Assembly (NCBI RefSeq): GCF_027497195.1
Contig: NZ_CP114905.1
Location: 5,467,001 to 5,531,000, forward strand
Direction of reading: 5' to 3'
DNA length: 64,000 nt
Origin: Streptomyces sp. WMMC500
GTDB taxonomy: Bacteria > Actinomycetota > Actinomycetes > Streptomycetales > Streptomycetaceae
Part shown: in pieces, positions 57,083 through 64,000 of the stretch
Layout of the letters: every line of letters begins with the position of its first letter
Position numbering within the stretch: the first letter of the stretch is position 1
Translations under genes and position numbers: made by a program
The notes under the pieces: generated by a model
What the model saw: the letters and a program-made list of their open reading frames with translations, nothing else
Databases searched by the model: none
What the model was told of the DNA's origin: nothing

Positions 57083-57184
57083 GCGTCCCCACGGTGCCGC
57101 TGATGCGAATAGCCTGGCCAGGCGTACAGATCTTACGCACAGTGATGTATGGATCACGTACTGCAAGTGGGGAGGCGGTTCAGT

Positions 57185-58021
57185 ATGGCGGAATCCAAGC
57201 GTCCGAGTCGACCGGTCGAGGGCGACGGGGCGGGGGTTCTCCGCGCTTTCGGTCGACAGCAGAAAATCCTCCGGGATCGAGCCGGTGTCACACAGCCGCA
57301 GTTGGCCGACCGGATCGGCTACAGCGAGTACATGGTCGGGGCGGTCGAGCAGGGGAGCAGGATCCCGCGGCCGGAGTACGTCGACCAGGCGGATGTGGCG
57401 CTCGACGCGGGCGGGCTGCTGAAGGTGATGAAGCCGGAGTTACTGCGGGTCAAGTATCCGGCGTTCTTCGAGGACTTCGCGGTCCTGGAGAAGGAGGCGG
57501 TGGAGCTGCACGCGTACGACTCGCAGGTTGTCTGGGGTCTGTTGCAGACCGAGGAGTACGCCCGCGCAGTCCTGGAGGCCCGCCGTCCAGCAGTACATGA
57601 GGACATCATCCAGCAGCGAGTCGCCGCCCGACTGGACCGACAGGCGGTCTTCGACCGCCAGCCCGCGCCCATTCTGAGCTTCGTACTCGAAGAGACCGTG
57701 CTGCGACGGCCGATCGGTGGAAAGGCCGTCCTGCGAAGCCAGTTGGAGCACCTGCTCCTGATCGGTCGGCGGCCGAACGTGGAGATCCAGGTCATGCCCA
57801 CAGACCGCGAGGAGCATGCCGGGCTGGCAGGCCCGTTGACCTTGCTTGAGACCGAGGACCAGCGCAGGATTGCGTACGTCGAGGTGCAGGGCACCAGCCA
57901 ACTGATCGTGGAGCGGAAAACGGTTCGTGAGATCGAGGCGCGGTACGGCATCATCCGGGCGCAGGCGCTGACGCCTCGCGAATCACTGGACTTCATCGAG
58001 AAGGTCTTGGGAGGGCTATGA
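57185..58021 (+). CDS. XRE-family regulator with DUF5753 domain
   Basis: This 278-aa protein has an N-terminal helix-turn-helix (LRDRAGVTQPQLADRIGYSEYMVGAVEQG in outline) and the DUF5753 C-terminal domain, VWGLLQTEEYARAVLEAR and PTDREEHAGLAGP. Members pair with small DUF397 proteins and influence development or antibiotic production. A GGGGAGG ribosome site precedes ATG 57185. It overlaps the DUF397 gene by four bases (ATGA). Confidence 0.9.
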   Translation: MAESKRPSRPVEGDGAGVLRAFGRQQKILRDRAGVTQPQLADRIGYSEYMVGAVEQGSRIPRPEYVDQADVALDAGGLLKVMKPELLRVKYPAFFEDFAVLEKEAVELHAYDSQVVWGLLQTEEYARAVLEARRPAVHEDIIQQRVAARLDRQAVFDRQPAPILSFVLEETVLRRPIGGKAVLRSQLEHLLLIGRRPNVEIQVMPTDREEHAGLAGPLTLLETEDQRRIAYVEVQGTSQLIVERKTVREIEARYGIIRAQALTPRESLDFIEKVLGGL

Positions 58022-58263
58022 GCACGCTGGCTTGGTTCAAGAGCAGCTACAGCGACAGCGAAGGCGGCAACTGCATCGAGGTCGCCCTCGACTGGCACAA
58101 GTCGTCCTACAGCGGCAGCGAAGGCGGCGCCTGCGTCGAGGTCGCCACCACCCCCACCACCATCCACGTCCGTGACTCCAAGGACCCCGAAGGCCCGGTG
58201 CTCACCTTCTCCGCCGACGCCTGGCAAGCCTTCACCGCCTACGCCGCCACCTCACCCCACTAA
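58018..58263 (+). CDS. DUF397 protein with internally duplicated signature
   Basis: This 81-aa protein is the coupled partner of the XRE regulator. The DUF397 motif occurs twice: WFKSSYSDSEGGNCIEVAL at residues 6-24 and WHKSSYSGSEGGACVEVAT at 26-44. The remainder, HVRDSKDPEGPVLTFSADAW, is the usual DUF397 C-terminal end. The duplication suggests an internal tandem event. Confidence 0.9.
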   Translation: MSTLAWFKSSYSDSEGGNCIEVALDWHKSSYSGSEGGACVEVATTPTTIHVRDSKDPEGPVLTFSADAWQAFTAYAATSPH

Positions 58264-59007: not shown

Positions 59008-59285
59008 CAACGGCTTGCTGCTCGGCGTCTCTACCGAGCCCGGCACCGTCGTGGGCCCTGTCGTTACCACATCGGATGGTGCGGTAGGCGTCGCGCCAGG
59101 CAGGCTGTTGGCGTAGGTGTCTGCCTGGGTTCGCCACAGAGTCGCATCCTTTCGTGGTCGAGCAGCGATTCGTGCCTGCCTTCCTCGGCGATCACGCCGC
59201 CGTCGAGACGGCCGGACCTTGTCTCGCTGAACCACCGCCAGCGGGGAAGACTGCACGTACACGCCGGCGAAATGAGGAGGGGGCG

Positions 59286-60068
59286 GTGCCCGTGGTCGCG
59301 GCCAACGGGGCGGATTCGGCGCTCAGGCGGGCCCGGGTGGCGCGGAACATGACGCTGGAGGAGGCGGCTGACGCCCTGAACGCAATTACCGGGGGCGCAT
59401 CGGACGCGAGCCTGATGAGCGCGTGGGAGTCCGGTCGGCGCCGAACCGGCAAGCGGAATCGGGCAGGGCTGTGCCAGCTCTACCGGGAGCGCCCGGAGGT
59501 GCTGTTCGCCCATCAGGACGGCGCGGAGGCCACCAGCGTGCTGGAGTCCTCCGGCACCGCGGTGGTGGTCAAGGTGCTCACCCGCTGGACCGACTTGGTC
59601 GAGGCGATGGTGGACGTCGCCGCCGCGGCACGCGAGCACCTGGTCGTCACCGGCTCCCGGAGCCGGGAGAAGGCGTATCTGGCGGCGATTGAGACTGCCG
59701 TGGCCCAGCACCCGGACCTGTTGCACTACCGGGTGCTGTACGGTCCGCCGCGCCACCGTGTGCTGGCCGACCACCTGTTGCGGCTGCTGGAGCTGCGTGA
59801 CCCGTCCGCTCGCCGCAACGGTGTCAAGACGCTGCGCATCGGGATGGTGGAGCAGGTTGAGGCGCTGGAGAGGTTCTTCGTCGCTTCCGAGACCGCTGCC
59901 GTGGCGCCGCTGCCGTCGTTCCATGGGGCCGAGGGCTTCGACTGCGGCGTGTTACTCGGCCGGGAGGCGGCAGTCGGGCTGGTCCACCATGGGCGGGAAG
60001 CGTGCGCGTCCGCGCGGCCGGTGGAGACGATCAAGGCCGTCCGCGCGTTGCCGGTACGGCACAGCTAA
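59286..60068 (+). CDS. XRE-type regulator of the lasso peptide cluster
   Basis: This 260-aa protein has an N-terminal helix-turn-helix (LRRARVARNMTLEEAADALN, then DASLMSAWESGRRRTG). A C-terminal domain of about 180 residues follows (TRWTDLVEAMVDVAAAAREHLVVTGSRSREK), of a type seen in Streptomyces regulators beside biosynthetic genes. I chose GTG 59286 behind GAGGAGGGG. The frame is open 44 codons upstream but that stretch has poor features. It ends 16 bases before the M20-like gene and is likely in the same transcript. Confidence 0.7.
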   Translation: MPVVAANGADSALRRARVARNMTLEEAADALNAITGGASDASLMSAWESGRRRTGKRNRAGLCQLYRERPEVLFAHQDGAEATSVLESSGTAVVVKVLTRWTDLVEAMVDVAAAAREHLVVTGSRSREKAYLAAIETAVAQHPDLLHYRVLYGPPRHRVLADHLLRLLELRDPSARRNGVKTLRIGMVEQVEALERFFVASETAAVAPLPSFHGAEGFDCGVLLGREAAVGLVHHGREACASARPVETIKAVRALPVRHS

Positions 60069-60084
60069 TCGGGCGAGGAGTGGC

Positions 60085-61278
60085 GTGAGCGACAACCTTC
60101 AGCAGGTGGCCAAGGCCCGCGTGGCATCCGTGATCGGGCTGGCCCAGGAGCTGATCCGGCGCCCCAGTCGGGCCGGGATCGACGGCTACGGGCCAGTTCT
60201 GGGCGTGCTGGAGGACTGGCTCGCCGTCCGCAATTTGCCGCACCGTCGCCTGCGCGACCCGGCGGGTGAGCTGGTTGGGCTGTTGGTGGAGATCCCCGGC
60301 GGCCGACCGGGAAAGTGGTGGACGCTTGACGCGTGTGTCGATACCGCCCCCTATGGCGACGAGGCCGCCTGGTCGTTCCCGCCGGCCGCGGGTGACGTGG
60401 TGGACGGCTGGCTGCGGGGCCGGGGTGCGGCGGACTCCAAGCTGGCCGCCGCGGTGTTCTGCCACATTGCCGCCGACCTCGCCCCCCGGGCCGCCGAGTT
60501 CAGCGGCGGGCTTGCCGTGCTCCTGGACGTCGACGAGCACACCGGTGTTTTCGGCGGTGCGCGCGCCTATCTCGCCGACGAGGCCGCGCATCGTCCAGCC
60601 GGGGTGATGATCGGCTACCCGGGCCTGGAGGAGGTCGTGGTCGGTGGCCGGGGCCTGTGGCGGGCCACGGTGACCGTGTACGCGCCCTCCGGGCACTCGG
60701 GTTCCAGCAGGACCGTGGTCGGCGCGATCTCGCGGGCGGCGCATCTCGTGCAGCTCCTGGACGCGGCCGATCTGCCCGGTGTGGCTGGCGGCGGCGGGTT
60801 CCCGCTGCCTCCGAAGGTTTCGGTCACCGCGTTTCACGGCGGCGAGGGCTTCTCCGTCATTCCGGACCGGGTCGACCTCAACGTCGATGTGCGCACCACC
60901 CCGGGTTTCGACGCGCATGACGCGGAGACCCTCGTCCGCAAGACTGTCGCCGAACTTGACGCGGAGCTGCCCGCCCCGGCTCCCACCGAGGTCGCCCCCG
61001 TCGCTGTGTGGCCGCCTTTCCGCCTGGCTGAGGACGAGCAGCCCGCCGGAGCCCTGCTGAACGCTGCTGCGGCTGCCGGGCTGACGGTGCGGGCGAAGAC
61101 CGCGGGCCCGTCGAACATCGGCAACCTGCTGGCCGGGGAGGGCATCCCGGCGACCGCCGGCTTCGGGGTGCCGTATGAAGGGCTGCACGGCATCGACGAA
61201 CGTGCCCACCTCGACGAACTCCCCTCGGTGTATGCCGTCTACCACCAGAGCGTCCTTGACCTTCTCCAGGCGGGCTGA
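60085..61278 (+). CDS. M20-family metallohydrolase-like protein with altered metal ligands
   Basis: This 397-aa protein has the M20/ArgE/DapE fold, including the lid His in YAPSGHSGSSRTV and the GRGAADSK loop (Asp117 kept). Other ligand positions have changed: the usual HxD reads ACVD (Cys84, Asp86), the usual EE reads DEHTG (Glu151 kept, His152), the usual D/EPT reads IGYPG (Tyr178). The last His (His368 in GLHGIDER) is kept. It follows the regulator by 16 bases and lies 137 bases before the lasso precursor. It may act on precursor or product, but catalysis is uncertain. Confidence 0.8.
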   Translation: MSDNLQQVAKARVASVIGLAQELIRRPSRAGIDGYGPVLGVLEDWLAVRNLPHRRLRDPAGELVGLLVEIPGGRPGKWWTLDACVDTAPYGDEAAWSFPPAAGDVVDGWLRGRGAADSKLAAAVFCHIAADLAPRAAEFSGGLAVLLDVDEHTGVFGGARAYLADEAAHRPAGVMIGYPGLEEVVVGGRGLWRATVTVYAPSGHSGSSRTVVGAISRAAHLVQLLDAADLPGVAGGGGFPLPPKVSVTAFHGGEGFSVIPDRVDLNVDVRTTPGFDAHDAETLVRKTVAELDAELPAPAPTEVAPVAVWPPFRLAEDEQPAGALLNAAAAAGLTVRAKTAGPSNIGNLLAGEGIPATAGFGVPYEGLHGIDERAHLDELPSVYAVYHQSVLDLLQAG

Positions 61279-61280
61279 CA

Positions 61281-61330
61281 TCCCAAGCGCGTCCCAGGTT
61301 TCTCCCAGATCCACTCCCAGCAAGTCCCCA
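61281..61330. promoter_or_regulatory. Phased TCCCA repeats upstream of the lasso precursor
   Basis: TCCCA(G) blocks start at 61281, 61292, 61303 and 61315, with TCCCC at 61325, giving spacings of 11, 11, 12 and 10 bases. They occupy one face of the helix, as direct-repeat operators for activators such as SARP proteins do. They lie about 90-135 bases before the precursor ATG. Confidence 0.6.
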
Positions 61331-61368
61331 TCTCCGTCTCTGGGAACGTGCCCTCGTCCGCGGTGACA

Positions 61369-61388
61369 TAGAGGCAGCACCACCTCTA
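61369..61388. promoter_or_regulatory. Inverted repeat before the lasso precursor
   Basis: A 6-bp inverted repeat, TAGAGG and CCTCTA with eight bases between, lies about 28 bases before the precursor ATG. It may be an operator at the precursor promoter or an mRNA hairpin near the ribosome site. Confidence 0.4.
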
Positions 61389-61415
61389 CATCCACCGAGA
61401 CAAGGGAGGCCGGTC

Positions 61416-61595
61416 ATGGCCGAGCAGACCCCCGTCACCGCCAAGCCCAAGCCCGCTGCCAAGGGCACCCCCGTGACGCCGCCGAGGAGCACTGGCGGCT
61501 TCGCGCCGCAGGTCAGCACCTACCCGGTGCCGGCCCTCACCCTGGGCCGGCAGACGTTCAACGACTCGGACAAGGACAACTACTTCGAGGGCTGA
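61416..61595 (+). CDS. Lasso peptide precursor
   Basis: This 59-aa peptide has a Pro/Lys/Thr-rich leader beginning MAEQTPVTAK with a YPVPALTL end, and a predicted 16-residue core GRQTFNDSDKDNYFEG (residues 44-59). A Thr at the penultimate leader position (-2) is the lasso hallmark, and Gly1 with Asp7 or Asp9 gives a seven- or nine-residue macrolactam ring. The leader is short between the Tyr-Pro-Val-Pro recognition segment and the cut. GGGAGG precedes the ATG. The cyclase gene starts 83 bases later. Confidence 0.85.
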   Translation: MAEQTPVTAKPKPAAKGTPVTPPRSTGGFAPQVSTYPVPALTLGRQTFNDSDKDNYFEG

Positions 61596-61678
61596 CGCCC
61601 AGGACAGCACCGGGCAGCCCCGGGGGCCGGTCGCTACGGCGGGCGGCCCCCGGGCGCGTCTGAAGGGGAGGCGAGCAG

Positions 61679-63424
61679 ATGGAACGGGAGTGGATGACCG
61701 GCGGCACCGCCGCCGTGAGCGGAACGGGAATCGAGGGGCTCGAAGGTGTGCGCCGCCCGCCGGCTGCGCGTGTGCGTTCGGCCGGGGAAGGGCAGGCCGT
61801 GGTCGCGGTCGTCGGCGACTGCCCGGTCGCCGAGCAGGACCTCCGCAGCGCCCTTCCGGCCGTGCGGGCGGGCCGGTGGGCCGAACTGAGCCGGTGGCCC
61901 GGCTCGTACTGGGTGCTCGCCGCCTGCGGGCGGCAGCGGTTCGTGTGCGGTGACCTCGCCGGAATCCGGACCCTCTACTACACGCCGCACCGGGAGGGGA
62001 CGGCGTGGGCGACCGCGCCCGGCCTTCTCCCCGCATCGCTCGTGCCGGACCTGCCGCACTTGGCGGCACGGCTGGCGGCGGGCGAGCACCACTGGCCGCA
62101 CCGCAGCCTGTACGAGCGGGTCCGGCAGGTACCCGGCGGATCCGGGATGCTCCTCACCCCCGGTGTGCCCCCGCAGCTCGTCGACGTTCGTCGCGCCGAG
62201 TCCGTCGCGGAACTCGGTCAGGGCGCCGAGCGGTTCGGCCGCGCGCTCACTGATGCCGTGGGGTACCGGGTCCGCGCGGCCGGCTCGGTGGTGGGGGCGG
62301 ATCTGTCCGGCGGGCTCGACTCCTCCGCGGCCGTCGTCCTCGCCGCCGAGGTCGGCGACGTGCACGCGGTGACATACACCGACGGCTACACCAGCGCCGA
62401 AGACGCCTCGTACGCCGCCCGCGTCGCCGAGCACACCGGCGTCACGCACACCATCGCTGCGGGCGGTCTGCCGCAGCTGCCCTTCGGCTTCGGCTCGGGG
62501 CAGCCCACCGGTGGCGAGCCGGTGCTGGGGGCGGCCATGTACGCCATGGACAGCGCGTACCTTCAGCCGGTGCGGGGGCTGCCGCTGCACCTGACCGGGC
62601 ACGGCGGGGACATCGTGCTGGACGCCTCCAGTGCTTGCTGGGTGCGGCTGGTGCAGGACGGCGGGTGGCGTGAGGCCCGCCGTCAGGTCGTGGCGTTCGC
62701 CCGGCTGCGCAATACCGCCCCGGGCCCTTACTGGAAGGCACTCAAACAGGCCGCTGAACTGGGACGTGCCGGCTCGCTGGGACGTGCCGCCGACGCCCTG
62801 GAACGCGGGCCCGTGACTGCGGATCCGGCTGTGGCGGGCTGGTCATGGTGTCGTCTGGGAGCCGGGGCGTCGTGGCTGACCGGGGAGGGCCGGCAGCAGG
62901 TCGCCGTGCAGTTGCGGCAGGCCGCCGGTGAACGGCAGCCGGAGATGGCGGACGAATTCGAGCAGTGGAGCGCCCTGCGGTCGGTCGGCGCCTCCGCCCG
63001 TGGCTGGACCCCGTACGCCGAAGCCCTCGGTGTGACACTGGCGTACCCGTACCTGGACAACGAGGTAGTGCGGGCCGCGTTCGCCATCCCGGCGCTCGCC
63101 CGCCGCGGGGTGGTCACGTACAAGCCGCTGCTACGCGCCGCGTTACCGCAGTTGCCCCAGTGGCTGACCGAGCGGCGCTCGAAGGGCTCCTTCACCGCCC
63201 AGCGCATCGCCGGACTCGCCCGCCACCGGGAGCGCCTCGACGAGTTGATCGCGGCCAGTCCGTTCGTCGGCGCGGGGCTCATCGACCATGCGGCGGTGAG
63301 CGCGGCGCTCGCGCAGGCCGCCCGCGGTCAGAACGCCACGGTCATCGCCGACCTGCACCGGCTCCTCGTCACGTGCTGGTGGCTCTCCGGCGAGCAGGCT
63401 GGCCGGAAGGTGGCGGCATGCTGA
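61679..63424 (+). CDS. Lasso macrolactam synthetase (asparagine synthetase-like)
   Basis: This 581-aa protein has an N-terminal Ntn-hydrolase-like domain (LSRWPGSYWVLAACG), without the Cys1 of true asparagine synthetases, and a C-terminal ATP-pyrophosphatase domain. The PP motif SGGLDSS is at residues 210-216. The helical end contains the DNEVVRAAFAIP and RRSKGSFTAQR segments of albusnodin/ikarugamycin-type cyclases. It would adenylate the ring acid side chain and join it to Gly1 of the core. ATG 61679 follows AAGGGGAGG. It overlaps the PqqD-like gene. Confidence 0.9.
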   Translation: MEREWMTGGTAAVSGTGIEGLEGVRRPPAARVRSAGEGQAVVAVVGDCPVAEQDLRSALPAVRAGRWAELSRWPGSYWVLAACGRQRFVCGDLAGIRTLYYTPHREGTAWATAPGLLPASLVPDLPHLAARLAAGEHHWPHRSLYERVRQVPGGSGMLLTPGVPPQLVDVRRAESVAELGQGAERFGRALTDAVGYRVRAAGSVVGADLSGGLDSSAAVVLAAEVGDVHAVTYTDGYTSAEDASYAARVAEHTGVTHTIAAGGLPQLPFGFGSGQPTGGEPVLGAAMYAMDSAYLQPVRGLPLHLTGHGGDIVLDASSACWVRLVQDGGWREARRQVVAFARLRNTAPGPYWKALKQAAELGRAGSLGRAADALERGPVTADPAVAGWSWCRLGAGASWLTGEGRQQVAVQLRQAAGERQPEMADEFEQWSALRSVGASARGWTPYAEALGVTLAYPYLDNEVVRAAFAIPALARRGVVTYKPLLRAALPQLPQWLTERRSKGSFTAQRIAGLARHRERLDELIAASPFVGAGLIDHAAVSAALAQAARGQNATVIADLHRLLVTCWWLSGEQAGRKVAAC

Positions 63425-63714
63425 CCCTCGCGTCACACGTCCATCACGCCACCGGCCCGGACGGTACGGCGGTGCTCGACACCCGGCGCGGCTCATGGCT
63501 CATGCTCGACCCGGACGCCTCGCAGGTCTGGCGCGCGATCACCGTTCGCGGCGGCACCGATGGGCTCGCGGACGAGATCGCCGTCCCCACCGGCCAGGAC
63601 CCGCAGGTCGTCGCCGAGCACATCACCACGTTCGTCGCCGAGCTGGTGGCCGCCGGGGTACTCGTCGACACCGCACAACCGGCCCCGCAGAAGAAAAGGA
63701 GGTGGTGGCGGTGA
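63418..63714 (+). CDS. PqqD-like RiPP recognition element protein of the lasso cluster
   Basis: This 98-aa protein has the PqqD fold (ATGPDGTAVLDTRRGSWLMLDP, VAEHITTFVAELVAAGVLVD) used by lasso systems to bind the precursor leader and deliver it to the protease. It overlaps the cyclase stop by seven bases and the next GTG by four bases, giving continuous coupling across the three biosynthetic genes. Confidence 0.9.
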   Translation: MLTLASHVHHATGPDGTAVLDTRRGSWLMLDPDASQVWRAITVRGGTDGLADEIAVPTGQDPQVVAEHITTFVAELVAAGVLVDTAQPAPQKKRRWWR

Positions 63715-64000
63715 CGGTCATGGTCCCCGGCGCCCGGCCCACCACGACCCGATACGACCGCATCGTCGCAGCCGCGGCCCTCGCGCTCTCTCTGGCGCTG
63801 GGCCGGCTGCCGCTGCGCCGGCAGATCGCCGCCGTACGTCTGCTGCGCGGCCTGCCCCACGCGGGCCTGGCCCGCCTCGAAGCCCTGAACGCCGCGGTCC
63901 TCGCGGTGGCCCCGGTGTGGTGGCGGGGCCGTATCGCCTGCATGGAGGTCAGCCGCGCCACGGTTATCGCTGCCGCGCTGACCGGCCGTCAGGCGCACTG
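63711..64000 (+). CDS. Lasso peptide biosynthesis B2 (transglutaminase-like) protease, partial
   Basis: The last gene runs off the end of the window. At least 96 residues are visible: a hydrophobic N-terminal part RIVAAAALALSLALGRLPLRRQ and the catalytic Cys in RIACMEVSRATVIAAALTG. B2 proteins are Cys-His-Asp proteases that remove the leader before cyclisation. The strong AAAAGGAGGTGG ribosome site precedes GTG 63711. The His and Asp of the triad would lie beyond the window. Confidence 0.88.
   Translation, partial: MTVMVPGARPTTTRYDRIVAAAALALSLALGRLPLRRQIAAVRLLRGLPHAGLARLEALNAAVLAVAPVWWRGRIACMEVSRATVIAAALTGRQAH

Follow-up and report, generated by a model that had tools for sequence, protein, structure and literature searches.

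A predicted lasso peptide operon of a new, narrow Streptomyces family and the conserved regulator-M20 region that precedes it

Gene organization of the locus

The window, i.e. the whole stretch of 64,000 nucleotides that was analysed, belongs to a genome consisting of a single 8.61-Mb contig and carries a lasso peptide gene set around a short precursor gene (Table 1). Judged by Pfam and NCBIfam matches, this set is complete and follows the order A-C-B1-B2-ABC exporter. The ABC exporter gene is located 3' of B2 outside the window and was read from L002, a locus sequence that extends past the window's end. The reading frames of the operon are uninterrupted, and neighbouring ones share a few bases: the ATG of B1 falls within the end of C, and the stop of B1 is overlapped by the GTG start of B2. 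Taken whole from L002, B2 scores 37.6 bits against PF13471 (cut-off 26), and its residues Cys77 and His109 are invariant in nine of nine aligned sequences. B1 reaches 32.1 bits against NF033530, under the cut-off of 70; with the NCBIfam models the precursor receives no name, and both the cyclase and B1 stay under their curated cut-offs.

Between B2 and the exporter, an additional ORF is present (L002:5317-5835, corresponding to window coordinates 64317-64835 and thus outside the window), which looks HNH-like by eye and has neither a Pfam match nor a tblastn match among 21 related loci.

Table 1. Features of the lasso peptide locus and of the region preceding it, in window coordinates
Feature	Position	Strand	Description and basis
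Helix-turn-helix (HTH) regulator	59274..60068	+	partner of the M20 gene; HTH match weak and below its cut-off, start provisional
M20 (ArgE/DapE-like) protein gene	60085..61278	+	PF01546, 61.3 bits; start inferred
Precursor upstream region	61279..61415	+	TCCCA at 61281, 61292, 61303 and 61315, then conserved AAGTCCCCA...CGTCTCTGGGAAC...CGCGGTGACAT
Lasso precursor A	61416..61595	+	59-aa ORF, ATG at 61416, stop at 61595; AAGGGAGG 5' of the ATG
Leader peptide, 43 aa	61416..61544	+	ORF and alignment with relatives
Leader element F-A-P-Q-V (-15 to -11)	61500..61514	+	conservation among 28 distinct precursors
Leader segment Y-P-V-P	61521..61532	+	well conserved at V-6 only
Core GRQTFNDSDKDNYFEG	61545..61592	+	G1 and D9 in 28/28, K10 in 27/28 distinct precursors; predicted Gly1-Asp9 isopeptide and Tyr13/Phe14 plugs
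Lasso cyclase C	61679..63424	+	asparagine-synthetase-like, SGGLDSS ATP site; PF00733, 95.8 bits
B1, PqqD-like RiPP recognition element (RRE)	63418..63714	+	PF05402, 29.7 bits (cut-off 23.4)
B2, transglutaminase-like leader protease	63711..64000, past the window's end to about 64127	+	PF13471

The precursor family and its distribution

In the translated ORF, Gly44 is core position 1, aspartates are found at core positions 7 and 9, and threonine is present at -2, in line with the preliminary description. The precursor therefore carries what the lasso class is tested for, namely Gly1, an acidic residue within positions 7-9, and Thr-2. Related precursors, and the cyclase, RRE and protease genes next to the ORF, further support the proposed cut before Gly44 and the resulting core boundaries. 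Cores of the same type precede the genes of lasso cyclases in further Streptomyces genomes and in one Actinacidiphila genome, which argues against a chance reading frame. The gene at 61416-61595 thus looks like a genuine lasso precursor that represents a new, narrow family with a well-defined core, so far seen in Streptomyces and one Actinacidiphila. The lasso operon itself is an ordinary kind of object.

A search of the genus returned precursor matches in 13 of 295 genomes, own genome included; three weak matches (L014-L016, E 0.004-0.008) in which the core was absent when read were dropped. Searching the order with the precursor alignment as query yielded 10 of 391 genomes, again including the window's own, and all of them belong to one of the 10 genera covered. 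The scan of a species-level genome collection produced 12 loci, 11 from Streptomyces and one from Actinacidiphila epipremni. After merging duplicates, 24 family loci were read. The cyclase adjoins the precursor in 22 of them, and B2 plus a full-length exporter match are present in 20, while one further locus stops at a contig end. Sixteen of these 20 loci have a B1 match by tblastn; at the threshold used, none appeared in L021/L063, L024, L066 and L067. At L020/L060 and L084, precursors occur for which the 8-10 kb read on either side contain no cyclase, and L018 has retained precursor and cyclase and lost B1 and B2. The two cyclase-less loci and the loss of B1 and B2 indicate that the lasso system is dispensable.

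Among the 24 members (all 276 pairs), the core shows 507 synonymous and 671 non-synonymous changes in 4416 codon comparisons, with the 16th core codon of one member, a stop, scored as non-synonymous. The last 15 leader codons show 618 synonymous and 2108 non-synonymous changes in 4140 comparisons, i.e. the core varies less than the leader and a larger share of its changes is silent. The main core is nearly constant even where cyclase identity to the window's enzyme falls to about 41%. Such conservation suggests that the lasso peptide has one fixed target and is not a diversifying weapon. Several loci (L022, L023/L065, L061, L064 and L084) encode extra second or third precursors with diverged cores, including GGETATEPDKDMFFFGP, GKGMASDPDKDWYFN, GTYTGRSDDKEDFFES, GRYVAHTADKDMFWFGP and others; these tandem cores keep Asp9, and one of them has Trp in place of Lys10.

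The core has four acidic and two basic residues, and it had been described as unusually acidic. Other cores in the comparison span similar numbers of acidic residues, which weakens the claim. The pattern D7-x-D9-x-[DST]11-N-x-x-E15, which we take to resemble the start of an EF-hand, was also considered as a possible calcium-binding loop and was rejected, because ring closure would consume Asp9, three of the 28 distinct precursors have Val or Glu at position 11, and no such pattern occurs in the neighbouring cores. A paper on the core sequence was not encountered in the literature searched, which lies mostly outside subscription journals.

The leader and its recognition element

Of 33 aligned rows, 30 precursors entered the counts of conserved positions, and 28 of these differ from one another when leader and core are taken together; the three rows left out belong to the duplicate records L063 and L065. 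The preliminary description had taken Tyr-Pro-Val-Pro as the recognition segment. The family comparison speaks against this: Tyr-8 occurs in one of the 28 distinct precursors, the window's own, and Pro-5 likewise in one, while Pro-7 is present in 15 and only Val-6 is widely kept (27/28). Conservation is found instead in F-A-P-Q-V, where Pro-13 is present in 26/28, Phe-15 in 22/28 and Leu, Val, Ile or Met at -11 in 26/28. Since Tyr-8 is seen once and these three positions are kept, the RRE most likely binds the leader at FAPQV. Thr-2 occurs in 27/28 of the distinct precursors.

According to the available text of PMC10368454, the usual position of the YxxPxL motif is -17 to -12, and the accessible part of a 2019 review (PMC6784204) states that the motif is present in all actinobacterial lasso leaders except that of albusnodin. 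The window's leader lacks Tyr-17, Pro-14 and Leu-12 and has Phe-15, Pro-13 and Val-11 instead. The leader had further been called compact, with its recognition segment directly against the cut. A mild shortening is real, because FAPQV is just one or two residues closer to the cut than the usual motif, but the segment against the cut is not conserved.

In comparison with other actinobacterial lasso peptides with split B1/B2, the window family has the same gene set, Gly1, Thr-2, a predicted Asp ring residue, a leader that contains Pro and a hydrophobic residue, and a hydrophobic residue at -6. The difference is FxPx[LVI] at -15 to -11 in the window family versus YxxPxL at -17 to -12 in the leaders described in the accessible part of PMC6784204. 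With its almost unchanging core and its displaced leader element, this compact family would be useful for testing how an RRE reads leaders.

Relation to albusnodin and to neighbouring families

The preliminary description placed the cyclase in the albusnodin family, and neither profile scores nor phylogeny agree with this assignment. Against NF033561, the window's cyclase scores 246.5 bits, under the 300-bit cut-off. At E <= 1e-20 this model matches 294 of the 295 genus genomes; matches over the cut-off are found in 27 of 295, and the window's genome is not among them. In a cyclase tree of 71 rows (70 loci plus the window), the window family of 22 forms one clade (100/100). Six albusnodin-type rows form another clade (97/93), which is joined with three high-scoring rows (100/99) and lies across a 100/98 branch from the window family, alongside ordinary lasso cyclases.

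Nearest to the window family are loci with GSAGNNNADDTQYWQ-like cores (98/90); the families with GSAGNNNADDTQYWQ and GSNGGNNADDTQYWQKG have the closest cyclases. Together with the families represented by GKYAEDSADKGRYFE and GSSPNGNADANAQYYW, they are on the same side of the 100/98 branch and share Asp9 and a short aromatic tail, and the GKYAEDSADKGRYFE family has Lys10, Tyr13, Phe14 and Glu15 as well. Their cores otherwise differ, their cyclases are about 32-35% identical to the window's, and, unlike the window family, they retain YxxPxL (e.g. YTAPVLSALGTVTGATL), with Tyr-17, Pro-14 and Leu or Val at -12 in the leaders read.

The claim that Asp9-Lys10 is common to the window core and albusnodin holds: albusnodin-type cores (EDKRRAYN) with this pair were read at six of the 30 loci fetched by the NF033561 search. 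The precursors of the three high-scoring kin (L031, L033 and L034) end in GNTSSSVENKRSPYGA, GNTNSSVENKRSPYGA and GGDDTGVENKRAPYDC. Their cores read VENKR, i.e. Glu8 and Lys10 are kept and position 9 is Asn. Given the Glu8 and Asn9 of these closest relatives, the ring acid of the albusnodin clade is probably Glu8, and the Asp9 shared by window and albusnodin-type cores may be a coincidence.

An AlbT-like GNAT gene is found 3' of the protease in three albusnodin-type loci, L078-L080 (by Pfam for one). An HMM built from these recovers all three and, at E up to 10, hits none of the 26 family stretches; two of the 26 belong to the window's own genome, and duplicate records make up two pairs among them. 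Acetylation of Lys10 by a cluster-encoded enzyme is improbable, though a GNAT encoded elsewhere in the genome might supply this activity. The ACBT cluster of albusnodin, as presented in the accessible text of PMC8498205, resembles the window's operon in Asp9-Lys10 and in a leader without a plain YxxPxL motif, but differs in the AlbT-like gene, the cyclase clade, the rest of the core, and the Glu8 and Asn9 of its nearest kin. Because no AlbT-like gene was found in the family stretches, the cyclases belong to different clades and the albusnodin kin keep Glu8, the kinship of the window's peptide with albusnodin appears much weakened and reduced to the shared pair. Asp9-Lys10 would then be separable from acetylation: it occurs in the window family, the GKYAEDSADKGRYFE family and the albusnodin-type loci, and an AlbT-like gene is seen in the last only, so that Lys10 by itself does not predict acetylation.

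Proposed maturation and alternative readings

Gene content, gene order and the pattern of conservation, all read in the sequence itself, are best explained by an operon for a disulfide-free lasso peptide, and we consider it quite probable that the following steps hold jointly. B1 would bind the leader via FAPQV, with Val-6 assisting, and B2 would cleave after Leu-1, beside Thr-2; a hydrophobic residue at -6 and Thr-2 are in agreement with the description of other lasso leaders in the accessible part of PMC6784204. The cyclase is predicted to adenylate Asp9 and to couple it with the Gly1 amino group, producing a ring of nine residues through which the short tail would thread, with Tyr13 and Phe14 as likely plugs. 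The ABC protein would export the product.

The assignment of the ring acid depends on two candidates. Asp7 is present in 14 of 14 NDSDK-type cores compared, and a seven-residue ring closed at this position would leave a longer loop and tail. However, six tandem second cores have Asp, Glu, Ser or Thr at position 7, four of them Ser, Thr or Glu, and position 9 is Asp in all six. Likewise, in the eight cores of neighbouring cyclases, all located on the window's side of the 100/98 branch, position 7 is acidic in none and position 9 is Asp in all; seven further cyclases on that side have no precursor read. Since Asp9 is invariant where position 7 is non-acidic, the nine-residue Gly1-Asp9 ring is most likely, and closure at Asp7 is very improbable. 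An albusnodin-type peptide, in which Lys10 is acetylated before folding, would account for the matching position of Asp9-Lys10 and for the presence of Lys10 in 27 of the 28 distinct precursors, and according to the available text of PMC9266682, clusters of the albusnodin-like kind conserve Lys10. On the opposite strand, about 2.5 kb beyond the exporter, a GNAT gene is present (L002:10552-11451), but it has no tblastn match among the 21 related loci. The failure of the AlbT-like HMM in the 26 family stretches, the separate cyclase clade, the VENKR cores of the three kin, whose ring acid is probably not at position 9, and the Trp at position 10 of one tandem core make acetylation highly unlikely.

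An operon that is real but silent or decaying in this genome, from which no lasso peptide is made, would fit the related loci that have lost B1 and B2 (L018) or the cyclase (L020/L060, L084) and the unmatched ORF inserted between B2 and the exporter. We give this little credence, as the operon genes are open and overlapping and the upstream region is conserved.

The upstream regulator-M20 region

The HTH and M20 genes are found upstream of the precursor in 15 of the 24 family loci and were not found in eight, while one contig is too short. In L060 the pair is 6.8 kb away from the precursor, and in L017 the HTH gene is interrupted. The HTH regulator is 63-91% identical across six relatives aligned; its structural model has a mean pLDDT of 48.8 and is confident in the HTH part alone. 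Close relatives of the M20 protein (E <= 1e-90) are encoded in 32 of 295 genomes, and among these 32 the HTH gene adjoins in 14, a lasso cyclase is close in seven and an orphan precursor of the family in one. The seven cyclases belong to the window family and a neighbouring family (G157, G166); as these two lasso families are neighbours in the tree, the module common to them may simply be inherited.

The same arrangement of HTH gene, M20 gene and conserved upstream region precedes different RiPP operons, as observed for the window (59274-61415), L090, L091, L092 and L095. In L091 the HTH/M20 pair is located before a graspetide set, which comprises a PF14408 precursor, an MvdD-like ATP-grasp protein and a PCMT methyltransferase. 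What follows the pair in L090 is a radical-SAM gene. The stretch from the M20 gene to the peptide gene aligns well in 11 loci, namely eight lasso loci including the window, the orphan-precursor locus, L090 and L091. Its four TCCCA repeats, 11-12 bases apart, are the sole array of four at 10-12 base spacing in the 64 kb on both strands. A consensus scan of 61100-61700 for sigma-70 promoters and terminators returned nothing; from its conservation and repeats, 61279-61415 is a probable promoter with a regulator site. Before the graspetide precursor in L091, the first bases of a lasso leader, ATGGCCGAGCA, are kept. This remnant of few bases, thin evidence in itself, suggests that one operon was replaced by another.

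A tentative reading, to which we give somewhat less than an even chance, is that the HTH regulator, an M20 protein with an altered metal site and the TCCCA promoter make up a transferable control cassette. Whole RiPP operons of different classes would be swapped behind it among Streptomyces, and one signal would switch on whichever operon is in place. With the same reserve, this reading could cover the two neighbouring lasso families, a graspetide and a radical-SAM product, and the nearly fixed lasso core would then be among the outputs of a shared circuit for signalling or self-recognition. If a promoter shared by different RiPP classes is real, one regulator could induce silent clusters of several classes. 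In the literature searched, again mostly outside subscription journals, no title dealt with this lasso family or with a module combining lasso peptides and M20 proteins.

Cys78, His146 and Tyr172 of the M20 protein do not vary among 11 aligned sequences, and two DapE sequences have His, Glu and Glu at these positions, which we take to be metal ligands. The M20 protein possibly has an altered metal site or has lost its hydrolase function. Further upstream, at 57149-58263 of the window, Pfam detects a DUF5753 regulator and, directly after it, a protein in which DUF397 occurs twice; such pairs are frequent in Streptomyces.
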